From Myxococcales bacterium (lineage in GTDB: Bacteria; Myxococcota_A; Polyangia; Polyangiales; Houyiibacteriaceae), in assembly GCA_024640845.1 (NCBI GenBank), contig JAHEEE010000040.1, positions 1 through 35,081 of the forward strand: 35,081 nucleotides of DNA, read 5' to 3'. Position 1 is the first letter of the stretch; each line of letters begins with the position of its first letter. Of the stretch, positions 17,271 to 23,066 are shown in pieces. Under the pieces are notes generated by a model. That model had not been told where the DNA came from, did not search any database, and saw only the letters and a program-made list of their open reading frames with translations. The translations under genes were made by a program, and so were the position numbers.

Positions 17271-18548
17271 TCAATCAGAGCTCGAGCTTCTGCTTTTTTG
17301 GCGGTTCGAGGCCGATTGGTAGATCGCGACGAACACCTGCGCGAGGGCTAGGCCGGCAATGATCGTACCGACCGCGCCCGTCAGCAGTGCCGCGATCGTC
17401 GGTCCCTCGATGCTCGCTGCGCGCCCCGCGATTGGCCAGACCTCGCTCGCGATGAGCAGACCCATGTCGATGCCGTACAGGACCAGAAGCGCCCCGGCCC
17501 AAACGTGTGCGCCCCCGCGAGTGCTGCTCTCCATGAACGCCATCAGCGCCAGAAGCCCGATGAGGCCGAAGCCGATGTGCGAGGCCGCCGGCGCCCAAGA
17601 TTGCCAGTGCCCTTCCAGCATGACCAGGCTCTCGGGGCCGCCAGAGACGACGAACCAGGCGCCCAGGGCCGACACACCGAGGGCGACTGCGAAGCGTGAA
17701 AGCCGCGCACCCCGGTAATAGGCGCGAAACAGGAGAGCCCCGCTCAACAGGATCGTGGCTCCCGCCAAAATGACTCCCTCGGGAGACAGGTCGTGGACGT
17801 TCTGCTGCCAGAGCGCGACGCCGGTGGCGACCGCCCCACACAATCCGAGGGAGATCGCGCGGGCCCTGTAGGACAGCGGCGTGAGCGCCAGGGTGCCCAT
17901 CATGATGAGCAGCGCCGCGGAGACGAATGTCAACGGATGGACACCACCCGCCCACGCAGCAGCGACCAGCCCGATCGTGCTCAGCGTCACCGCAACGACA
18001 CGAAGGGTGTTCGCCCCGGGGCTCGAGGGCCGCATCTGTTCGCGAAGCAGATCGGAGGCGAGAATCGGCGGTCCGGGCGGGGCCGGCATGTTCGGGAGGC
18101 TCTTGTCCCGCTCAGGCAGGGCAGGCCGCGGCTGCTCGCCGGACGGCTCGGATGGCTCCTCGCTGGGAGGGAGGCTACCCGTCTGGCGGAGCCTTTGCTC
18201 CGAGAGGGTCCCGTCCTTGCGGCGGTGCAGTGGCAAGACCGGCGCTGGTTCGCTCGTCTCGCGCTCGCGAATGGCCGTCTGATTGACCTTGGTGTGTCCG
18301 ATATCGGAAGGCTCTGCTTCTACGGGGTCCGACAAGGCGACGACCGCCATGGCGCGCGCAGAGGTCGCGCTCCCCGCGACAGGCGGAAACGCGCCGCTCA
18401 GTCGCTCGGGCCCCGACTGGACGCCGCTCGGGCGCCGGCCGTGCGCAATCGGCACGACGGGTTTGGCGCCGGGAACCGGCTCGCCGCAGGTTCCGCAGAA
18501 AGCATCGGTTCTTAGGACTTTAGCGTTGCAGCTTTTGCACGTTGGCAT
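17271..18548 (-). CDS. Zinc-ribbon protein with a C-terminal multi-pass membrane domain
   Basis: The 425-residue product begins with a double-CxxC zinc ribbon (MPTCKSCNAKVLRTDAFCGTC trimmed: Cys4, Cys7, Cys18, Cys21). A disordered Pro/Ser/Glu-rich stretch (about 25-180) contains PLHRRKDGTLSEQRLRQTGS and SEEPSEPSGEQPRP. About eight hydrophobic segments fill 185-410, and the C-terminus is the polar, Lys/Ser-rich NRQKSRSSSSD. Zinc-ribbon headed membrane proteins with long linkers are common in myxobacteria, but I know no function for this one. It converges on the CAP gene with three bases between stops. Its upstream region is the gap holding the sigma-54 promoter, which points the other way. Confidence 0.85.
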   Translation of the reverse strand: MPTCKSCNAKVLRTDAFCGTCGEPVPGAKPVVPIAHGRRPSGVQSGPERLSGAFPPVAGSATSARAMAVVALSDPVEAEPSDIGHTKVNQTAIRERETSEPAPVLPLHRRKDGTLSEQRLRQTGSLPPSEEPSEPSGEQPRPALPERDKSLPNMPAPPGPPILASDLLREQMRPSSPGANTLRVVAVTLSTIGLVAAAWAGGVHPLTFVSAALLIMMGTLALTPLSYRARAISLGLCGAVATGVALWQQNVHDLSPEGVILAGATILLSGALLFRAYYRGARLSRFAVALGVSALGAWFVVSGGPESLVMLEGHWQSWAPAASHIGFGLIGLLALMAFMESSTRGGAHVWAGALLVLYGIDMGLLIASEVWPIAGRAASIEGPTIAALLTGAVGTIIAGLALAQVFVAIYQSASNRQKSRSSSSD

Positions 18549-18649
18549 TGGGCCCGGCCTATCCGGTGCTCAGATCATACGCGGGACCGGCGGCCAACTT
18601 CAACCTACCGGGTGTGGGGATGTGTGCAGGCCGCGCTCCGGAGTTGGTG

Positions 18650-18693
18650 TGTCGAAACCACGACATCGCGTGCGGGTCCATGACAGAAATGTC
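18650..18693. promoter_or_regulatory. Two TGTC/GACA dyads upstream of the sigma-54 promoter
   Basis: TGTCG-N6-CGACA spans 18650-18665, and GACA-GAAA-TGTC spans 18682-18693. They lie roughly 80 to 125 bases upstream of the predicted start, where enhancer-binding activators of sigma-54 usually bind. The dyads are short and may be chance. Confidence 0.25.
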
Positions 18694-18747
18694 CTACCAA
18701 TCACCCGCTCGCTGAGAAAACCTCTGGCTTTTTTCTGCAAGAACGAG

Positions 18748-18764
18748 TTGGCACTGCGATTGCA
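18748..18764 (+). promoter_or_regulatory. Sigma-54 (-24/-12) promoter
   Basis: TTGGCAC (18748-18754), five bases, then TTGCA (18760-18764) matches the core of the recalled consensus YTGGCAC-N5-TTGCW at every position. The GG and GC dinucleotides have the required spacing. Counting from the -12 element puts transcription start near 18775. A T-rich tract (18730-18735) lies just upstream. No gene start lies downstream on this strand before an intrinsic terminator. Confidence 0.75.
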
Positions 18765-18774
18765 ATGGACTCGC

Positions 18775-18954
18775 TCACTTGCTTAAGACCCACGCCGCGC
18801 ACTTTCCAGCTTGCCCGGCATCCGCGTGGCGGTGGGTCGTCCTTTACTCCGTAAAACTCAGGTTCTTACGGCTTAACTTATCACCTAGCTTATCATTCTA
18901 GCATCGATTCTTTCGTTTGAAATGGGTCACCTTCGGGGGACCCATTTTGCTTTT
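18775..18954 (+). ncRNA. Candidate sigma-54-dependent small RNA of about 175-180 nt
   Basis: The interval runs from the predicted sigma-54 start to an intrinsic terminator and has no credible reading frame. Hairpin 1 pairs 18787-18800 with 18824-18838: 14 base pairs including one G-U, with one bulged G. Hairpin 2 is CCGTAA (18849-18854) with TTACGG (18866-18871). A probably single-stranded stretch carries two near copies of one motif, CTTATCACCTAGC at 18877-18889 and CTTATCATTCTAGC at 18889-18902. The third hairpin is the terminator. The architecture suits a trans-acting regulatory RNA with the repeated motif as a possible seed. Sigma-54-driven sRNAs are known in myxobacteria (Pxr of Myxococcus xanthus), but I cannot claim identity. 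Confidence 0.65.
18920..18954 (+). terminator. Intrinsic terminator of the candidate small RNA
   Basis: AAATGGGTC (18920-18928) and GACCCATTT (18939-18947) form a perfect nine-base-pair stem with a ten-base loop. It is followed by TTTT, GC, TTTT to 18954. Since the stem is A/T-flanked, it could also act on the opposite strand. Confidence 0.8.
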
Positions 18955-18957
18955 AAG

Positions 18958-19019
18958 CCCCGCTCGGGTGGGGTGGTGGGGGATGGAACCCCGCTCGGGT
19001 GGGGTGGTGGGGGATGGAA
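18958..19019. repeat. Perfect tandem duplication of a 31-bp G-rich unit
   Basis: The unit CCCCGCTCGGGTGGGG-TGGTGGGGGATGGAA occurs at 18958-18988 and 18989-19019 without a mismatch. It lies between two intrinsic terminators pointing at each other, outside any gene. Perfect identity suggests a recent duplication. Confidence 0.95.
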
Positions 19020-19026
19020 TTAACCG

Positions 19027-19058
19027 AAAAACGGCCCACCCGGATGCAGGTGGGCCGT
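19027..19058 (-). terminator. Intrinsic terminator of the YdcH-like gene
   Basis: On the minus strand ACGGCCCACC (19058-19049) pairs perfectly with GGTGGGCCGT (19040-19031) over an eight-base loop. A T-run at 19031-19027 follows directly. It ends the leftward transcript from 19291, whose stop is 38 bases upstream. Confidence 0.85.
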
Positions 19059-19096
19059 CGATAGGGGCGCTCAGCAGAGCGCGGCAGGGCCGTGCT

Positions 19097-19291
19097 TCAA
19101 CCGACCGACTCGAGGGCGTCTTTCGCCCAAAGCTTTTCCTTCTTCAGCTGGTGCAGCTCCAGCTCTTCACTCGGTGTCAGGCTCATGCGACTGTCGAGGG
19201 CTGCGACGCGCGCGGCCAGCTCGGCATGTTTCTTTTCGAGGTGCGATCGCGTGCGATCTTCGGGAATGATTCGAGCGTGCTGCTTGGACAT
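19097..19291 (-). CDS. YdcH-like (DUF465) small coiled-coil protein
   Basis: The 64-residue product begins MSKQHARIIPEDRTRSHLEK and is almost wholly charged helix. HAELAARVAALDSRMSLTPS and EELELHQLKKEKLWAKDALE give the two helices of the DUF465/YdcH hairpin, in which the conserved LKKEKLxxKD pattern is diagnostic. Function is unknown in the family. ATG 19291 is chosen because GGAGGTGAC stands immediately upstream; the frame extends further but without such a site. It is a single-gene unit with its own terminator at 19058-19027, divergent from lolA. Confidence 0.8.
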   Translation of the reverse strand: MSKQHARIIPEDRTRSHLEKKHAELAARVAALDSRMSLTPSEELELHQLKKEKLWAKDALESVG

Positions 19292-19470
19292 GTCACCTCC
19301 AGGTGCGGACGGAGTTTCAAAGCCAAGCCAACGCGGGCGCACGGAACGCCAACGCTCTTAGTCTAAGGTTATGGCCGCAAATGATCAATCCCACTTTCGG
19401 GGATATGTGGTCGACTTGTGTACGTTTCCGCAGGGTGAATACTGCCGGCCCGGGAGCGTTGTACACATTG

Positions 19471-20172
19471 ATGACCTCGAGAGTTTTGGCGATCGGCCTT
19501 TGTTTTGCCGTGGTTTCGCCGGTGGGGCGCGCCCTCGGGCAGGAGAAAGCGACCCCCGACGCGGCCGCGATCGTCGCGTTGGTGCAGACCTTCTACGATC
19601 AAACGAAGACCCTGCAGGCGGACTTCGAGCAGACGCGCTACACGCGCCTCTACGATCGCTACGACTACGCGAAGGGGCAGGTCGCATTCAAGAAGCCGGG
19701 CATGATGCGCTGGGACTATTCCATGCCAAACCAGCAGGTCTACGTGAGCAACGGGAAGAGGCTGCTGATCTACCAGCCCCCCGAGGAAGGCGAGAAGCGC
19801 GGCCAGTTGATCGATCGTGACCTCGACGACGATCAGCTCCCGTCGGCGTTTTCATTTCTCACGGGCGGCGGGGATCTCGACAAAGACTTCGAGGTGCGTC
19901 TTCTCGAGTACGACGACGACAAGCTCAAGGACGGCTATGTGTTGCAACTCATTCCGCGGAAACCGACGCCAAACTACGAGCAACTCGTCTTTTACGTCCG
20001 TGCGCTGACGAACGATGGAAAACGCGCCGGGGTGGTGCAAAGGGTCTTGATCATCGACTCGGCCGGCAACCGCAACCGCTTCGACTTCTCGAAGATCAAG
20101 TTCAACCGCGACATACCGGACAAGCGCTTCAACTACCGTCCGCCGAAGGGGACAGAGCGCGTCACGCCCTGA
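19471..20172 (+). CDS. lolA: LolA-type outer-membrane lipoprotein carrier
   Basis: LolA ferries lipoproteins across the periplasm from LolCDE to the outer membrane. The 233-residue protein starts with a signal peptide (MTSRVLAIGLCFAVVSPVGR, cleavage probably after ALGQ near residue 24). The family core follows: LVQTFYDQTKTLQADFEQTR, KKPGMMRWDYSMPNQQVYVS, a DGKRLLIYQP-like NGKRLLIYQPPEE strand and SAFSFLTGGGDL. The beta-barrel pattern and length fit LolA. The ATG at 19471 is the first that gives a signal peptide at the N-terminus; in-frame TTGs at 19459 and 19468 are alternatives. A weak promoter (TTGTGT around 19414, AATACT around 19438) may precede it. Its end overlaps the convergent glycosyltransferase by 11 bases. 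Confidence 0.85.
   Translation: MTSRVLAIGLCFAVVSPVGRALGQEKATPDAAAIVALVQTFYDQTKTLQADFEQTRYTRLYDRYDYAKGQVAFKKPGMMRWDYSMPNQQVYVSNGKRLLIYQPPEEGEKRGQLIDRDLDDDQLPSAFSFLTGGGDLDKDFEVRLLEYDDDKLKDGYVLQLIPRKPTPNYEQLVFYVRALTNDGKRAGVVQRVLIIDSAGNRNRFDFSKIKFNRDIPDKRFNYRPPKGTERVTP

Positions 20173-21233: not shown

Positions 21234-23066
<1,833 letters not shown>

Follow-up and report, generated by a model that had tools for sequence, protein, structure and literature searches.

The window analyzed here, the whole 35,081-nucleotide stretch of contig JAHEEE010000040.1 of a Myxococcales bacterium (draft genome of 4.1 Mb in 145 contigs), very probably carries a free-standing gene for a sigma-54-dependent small RNA (sRNA) in the interval before lolA. 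This conclusion is drawn from sequence, and there are no expression data for the element. As the initial annotation had claimed, the promoter, TTGGCACTGCGATTGCA, is a full match to the sigma-54 core TTGGCAC-N5-TTGCA. The pattern TTGGCAY-N5-TTGCA has a single match in the window, and none was expected based on 100 shuffles. A looser core with one mismatch was found three times in the window against 2.98 expected, and is not significant alone. The GG at 18750-51 and the GC at 18762-63 have the GG-N10-GC spacing of a -24/-12 promoter, and the predicted transcription start is therefore at ~18775, 12 nt downstream of the GC in the -12 element. An enhancer site, located 54 bp before the promoter, had been overlooked. 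Its GACA-N4-TGTC palindrome is the core of a conserved block, ATGACAGAAATGTCCTACC (18680-18698), and the distance from the start of the enhancer to the start of TTGGCA was 65-67 bp in all 19 loci of the genus. The GAAAACC..TTTTTT element located between the enhancer and the -24 region may correspond to a DNA bend or to another protein site. The features of the locus are compiled in Table 1.

Table 1. Coordinates of the putative sRNA gene, its predicted parts and its neighbors in the window.
Feature	Position	Strand	Basis or remark
Divergent neighbor gene, protein family unknown	17271..18548	-	conserved neighbor in genus
Enhancer (upstream activator) palindrome GACA-GAAA-TGTC	18682..18693	+	19/19 genus loci; no binding data
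GAAAACC..TTTTTT element between enhancer and -24	18716..18734	+	recognizable AAAA..TTTT form in 17/19 genus loci
Sigma-54 core promoter TTGGCAC-N5-TTGCA	18748..18764	+	unique in window; 0 in shuffles; 19/19 genus loci
Predicted sRNA transcript, ~181 nt	18775..18955	+	+1 placement; conservation limits at both ends; fold z -3.5
5' hairpin (SL1)	18787..18838	+	consensus structure over 19 sequences; fold
Nearly invariant 22-nt loop CTTTCCAGCTTGCCCGGCATCC	18802..18823	+	mean pairwise identity 0.98
Variable single-stranded linker with CUU motifs	18840..18894	+	identity 0.50; length differs among relatives; CUU enrichment
Conserved unpaired 3' segment ATTCTAGCATCGATTCTTTCGTTT	18895..18918	+	identity 0.91
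Intrinsic terminator with T-rich tail	18919..18955	+	9-bp stem; conserved in 19 loci
DUF465 gene, convergent neighbor, syntenic marker	19097..19294	-	PF04325
lolA, outer-membrane lipoprotein carrier, syntenic marker for counterpart search	19471..20172	+	PF03548

The predicted 181-nt RNA folds to -56.4 kcal/mol (z -3.5 against shuffles). It would end in the nine-base-pair terminator that had been placed about 180 bases downstream of the promoter, and which our analysis confirmed, with the stem formed by AAATGGGTC (18920-18928) and GACCCATTT (18939-18947) and with an imperfect tail, TGCTTTTA. Two further stable hairpins had been described in the transcript. The one nearest the 5' end, SL1, held up, being present in 19 of 19 genomes of the genus, whereas that at ~18849-18871 lies inside the variable linker and is missing in many relatives. 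In the consensus of the 19 sequences, the SL1 stem had a double change at one pair only, because the stem barely varies within the genus. The next gene on the plus strand, lolA, starts 516 bp past the terminator, with an opposing gene in between, which indicates that the sRNA transcript is free-standing and not a leader. Directly after the sRNA terminator, a 31-bp unit (CCCCGCTCGGGTGGGGTGGTGGGGGATGGAA) occurs twice in tandem at 18957-19019, and is absent there in the relatives within the genus. A strong minus-strand terminator for the DUF465 gene (19030-19059) faces the sRNA terminator.

BLASTN searches found the element in all 19 genomes of the genus at 73-89% identity, once per genome (split into two adjoining pieces in one of them), and gave no match in 39 genomes outside the genus. 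The covariance search of myxobacterial genomes that had been proposed as a check was successful within the genus, where it recovered the same 19 genomes, but not beyond it, as none of 165 further genomes from the order matched the full-length model. The gene order around the element is identical in 19 of 19 genus genomes. Alignment of the genus sequences revealed conserved blocks in the order enhancer (ATGACAGAAATGTCCTAC), promoter (TTGGCAY-N5-TTGCA), 5' end (CGCTTGCTTAAG) and 5' hairpin, followed by the indel-filled linker, then TAGCATCGATTCTTTCGTTTG and lastly the terminator. Mean pairwise identity was highest in the loop (0.98), the enhancer block (0.92), the -24/-12 region and the 3' segment (both 0.91), versus 0.58 in the spacer, 0.50 in the linker and 0.42 after the terminator. 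Third codon positions of the neighboring genes had identities of 0.45-0.57 when measured against the window. Judged from these alignments, strong purifying selection acts on exactly those parts that a sigma-54 sRNA requires. The initial annotation had regarded a lack of conservation of the promoter and hairpins in related genomes as refuting the sRNA; the promoter, 5' hairpin, loop and terminator were all present in 19 of 19 genus genomes, and the same type of promoter was found in counterparts across the class. In the named genome collection, the exact 20-nt loop was present in members of the genus and in four isolated matches, which lacked the rest of the RNA and were taken to be chance. Records with the exact loop were Myxococcales or Deltaproteobacteria metagenome bins, e.g., LJTN01000009 (Myxococcales bacterium SG8_38).

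Counterparts in other genera were beyond the reach of both BLASTN and the covariance model, and our search for them was guided by synteny at the lolA locus and by the enhancer-promoter signature. At lolA in other genera and families, the enhancer and a TGGCA-type sigma-54 promoter were observed at the corresponding place, with the same position and orientation in 12 of the 20 lolA loci examined (two of these, L232 and L235, had no exact enhancer match). Two further cases at lolA loci, L229 and L234, had rearranged surroundings, and L283 was one more syntenic case. A class-wide search for the enhancer-promoter signature gave matches in 60 of 318 genomes, and none for a reversed control pattern. 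These matches were of two kinds: promoters of genes, whose products were mostly secreted or lipoprotein-like, and promoters that precede CUU-rich DNA without coding capacity, in many cases ending in a terminator-like hairpin. When the RNA-type matches are counted together with the lolA cases, putative counterparts of the RNA occur in ~23 genera of nine families of the class, three of which (f18, f26 and f30) are outside the order. No counterpart was found in some genera (g5 and g11) or in nearly all of family f12. It should be considered that exact patterns undercount diverged sites, that many of the genomes are drafts, and that a terminator was not located for every counterpart. No report of an RNA of this kind turned up in the open-access literature, and this family of CUU-repeat-bearing RNAs in many myxobacterial lineages has apparently not been described so far.

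The most prominent feature of the counterparts was their repeated CUU motif. Fourteen counterparts outside the genus contained 79 occurrences of CTT-N1-3-CTT, where dinucleotide-preserving shuffles had 18.4 (z 13.9) and the opposite strand had none, and CTTGGCTTG was observed 8 times versus 0.1 expected. Within the genus, there were 16 occurrences of CTT-N1-3-CTT versus 4.1 expected (six sequences). The gap between CTT motifs was most often 1-2 nt and the next base was most often G or A; in predicted folds, the unpaired fraction was 0.67 for CTT and 0.45 for all bases. The short RNA of the window's genus has ~10 CUU motifs, and those elsewhere have 11 to 22 in their first 250 nt. Repeat counts were bimodal, at 2-8 or 0-1, with a mean of 3.2 for the RNA type versus 0.08 at gene-type promoters of the same signature, but this comparison is partly circular, as CUU content was used in part to sort the two types. 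A second shared feature was TGCCCGGC, found in 7 of the 14 counterparts, mostly within a hairpin near +30 whose position matches that of the genus loop and whose outer stem differs in sequence. The apical loop UUGCCCGGC was common to part of the counterparts. The RNAs meet the criterion of many copies of one short unpaired motif, as in protein-titrating RNAs of the CrcZ and CsrB type; they do not meet the repeated-GGA criterion of the CsrB/RsmZ family, as GGA is scarce (0-4 per transcript). In CUU-rich RNAs of family f26 (L265, L266, L267 and L271-L273), CTCCTTCTCTTGTC or a near form of it, complementary to a strong Shine-Dalgarno sequence, was located just before the terminator.

The dependence on an enhancer-binding activator that had been inferred from the promoter type is supported by the invariant upstream site, which is common to a promoter adjacent to an activator gene, although there are no binding data. 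The window's genome has 18 clear enhancer-binding proteins, and at only one of their loci was there a GACA-N4-TGTC site, TGACATTAATGTCA. This site is directly downstream of the gene for a protein with FHA, GAF, AAA+ and HTH domains (Pfam; G000:C93:50620-52443), and is followed by a GGCATGACCTTTGC promoter and then by a short lipoprotein-like gene. In eight good genomes of the genus, the only recurring pairs of enhancer and -24/-12 promoter were those at the sRNA and at the FHA-GAF gene, and enhancer and promoter abutted the 3' end of the FHA-GAF gene in every one of the 15 loci checked in the genus. Both promoters have a GAAAACC..GGTTTT element between the enhancer and the -24 region. Conservation of the FHA-GAF activator extends to most of the order, and a site after its gene also persists in some distant families. 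The FHA-GAF-AAA+-HTH protein is likely the activator of the sRNA; this assignment is inferred from association alone in a genome with ~18 such activators. In the window's genome, a PilZ gene (PF07238; L117:175-909) was noted adjacent to the FHA-GAF gene.

We propose that the FHA-GAF-AAA+-HTH protein would sense a signal via its FHA and GAF domains, bind the GACA-N4-TGTC palindrome and induce both the RNA and the lipoprotein-like gene adjacent to its own. The RNA would act via its multiple unpaired CUU(R) sites and its conserved loop, and may occupy an RNA-binding protein that recognizes CUU, so that a burst of the RNA would free the mRNA targets of that protein. The production of the RNA, its activation by the FHA-GAF protein and the role of CUU as a working part are all inferred. 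Titration is most likely the final step, but that step rests on analogy with CrcZ-Hfq and CsrB-CsrA, and the protein partner is unidentified. Taken as a whole, with sigma-54 control, FHA-GAF activation and titration of a protein by CUU sites, the proposal is one we favor only modestly. The wider hypothesis, in which an old, class-wide family of sigma-54 CUU(R) RNAs would titrate an unknown RNA-binding protein through a new recognition motif, wired to the FHA-GAF protein and to envelope lipoprotein genes, is more tentative, and on balance we lean somewhat against it.

The main alternative is that the RNA is a trans-acting antisense sRNA whose 22-nt loop and unpaired 3' segment pair with the leaders or start regions of mRNAs, with the CUU motifs serving as many weak seeds or as stability elements. 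We consider this possible, if doubtful. Among the transcribed parts, constraint is strongest in the loop and the 3' segment, which lie in a loop and between hairpins, as would suit pairing, and the complement of the 3' segment (GAAAGAATCGATGC / GAAAGAAUCGAUGC) resembles a ribosome site plus start codon; the CTCCTTCTCTTGTC of the f26 RNAs also fits such a role. That whole segments of 22 and 24 nt are invariant exceeds what CUU repeats need and counts against titration, as base pairing or a structured binding site would fit equally well. However, no conserved target with up to three mismatches in 20 nt was found in ten genomes of the genus, although real pairing can be shorter. That search used the complement of the loop and that of the 3' segment, and only the sRNA itself recurred besides GATGCCGGGCATGATGGAYA, which reads Met-Pro-Gly-Met-Met-Asp and looks like a codon run of a receiver domain. 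Pairing also does not need dozens of loosely spaced CUU motifs confined to one strand. CUUG and CUUA are not complementary to the Shine-Dalgarno sequence, and CUUR has the complement YAAG, which is no Shine-Dalgarno sequence; this speaks mildly against ribosome sites being simply blocked.

It is very unlikely that the region is a short coding gene or the leader of a downstream gene, with its hairpin-rich DNA being untranslated. Small ORFs can hide in free-standing sRNAs, and chance ORFs of 16-86 codons are present in the transcripts; however, the longest ORF in the window's transcript has 40 codons, and indels among relatives break every frame, in agreement with the earlier claim that no credible frame exists between promoter and terminator. 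The conserved terminator and the distance and orientation of the genes up to lolA nearly refute a leader. Scarcely tenable, too, is the idea that no stable RNA is made and that the conserved sequence serves merely as a regulatory or structural site in the DNA: no transcript has been measured, but the promoter, start, structured body and terminator are ordered on one strand and the motif enrichment is strand-specific.

The sRNA interpretation can be compared with known systems. No Rfam 15 family was found above the gathering threshold for the whole window or the 14 counterpart loci, or for 18549-19100 searched at a permissive threshold, and two weak hits, Chlorobi-1 and STnc450, were both outside the transcript. 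Sigma-54-dependent sRNAs proved less rare than the initial annotation had assumed. GlmY is one example, and in the enterobacterial GlmY/GlmZ system the activator half-sites are likewise TGTC/GACA, but opposite-facing and further apart. A link to GlmY/GlmZ via glmS, which is at 21234-23066 in the window, was dropped because Rfam gave no match and the half-sites of the sRNA enhancer have the opposite orientation. The classical CsrB/RsmZ RNAs, which are not known to be sigma-54-dependent, resemble the window's RNA in having many copies of one short unpaired motif and in the logic of titration, but their motif is GGA in hairpin loops. A Vibrio Qrr RNA is also sigma-54-dependent (PMC10162802), as is CrcZ, which has an RpoN-dependent promoter and six A-rich repeats and sequesters Hfq (PMC4063720). 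The likeness to CrcZ/CrcY of Pseudomonas includes the RpoN promoter with an enhancer-binding activator (CbrB), the free-standing gene and the repeated short unpaired motifs (PMC4063720). The differences are A-rich A-R-N repeats for Hfq rather than CUU(R), CbrB rather than an FHA-GAF activator, and the lack of any sequence relation, there being no Rfam hit; moreover, CrcZ titrates an RNA-binding protein (PMC4063720), which has not been shown for the window's RNA.

Pxr of Myxococcus xanthus, which the initial annotation had named as a sigma-54-driven sRNA without being able to show homology, has a predicted sigma-54 promoter adjoining pxrR/nla19, an enhancer region, three stem loops and a 3' terminator-like stem (PMC5568312, PMC5684412), and has been reported from Cystobacterineae only (PMC5568312). 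That the sRNA is a diverged member of the Pxr family is the least credible reading, even with both being sigma-54-dependent, hairpin-rich and myxobacterial: the Smith-Waterman score was equalled by 137 of 500 shuffles, the C-rich SL1 loop of Pxr is absent, no pxrK/pxrR two-component genes are adjacent (the neighbors being the gene of unknown family, the DUF465 gene and lolA), and the range and the activator, for Pxr the response regulator PxrR/Nla19, also differ. Our Pxr query was pieced together from published primers and is a few bases off the stated length, so this comparison is approximate.

Regulation by sRNAs in myxobacteria is known mainly from Pxr, in one suborder. The sRNA described here would be a second, unrelated sigma-54-dependent myxobacterial RNA, one found in many genera and with a candidate activator. 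If the titration proposal is true, it would represent a myxobacterial post-transcriptional switch with a logic equivalent to that of CsrA/CsrB or Hfq/CrcZ. The repeated CUU motif is directly usable as bait, and if it binds a protein, a global post-transcriptional regulator would be exposed in these multicellular, predatory bacteria.

The enhancer-promoter signature was also observed in other settings. In other genera (L063, L065 and L066), it precedes ORFs with an RDLSGGG-type motif that are PilZ-domain-like. In family f31 (L279-L281), it drives a conserved protein gene, whose product starts with MMPNAR or MISNAQR, and no RNA. One genome, G221, has five near-identical units of GACA-N4-TGTC plus sigma-54 promoter (GACAACCCTGTCCAAAAAGTGTCCAACTTAGCC...), at L259 and four other places, a pattern suggestive of a dispersed repeat or a mobile element.
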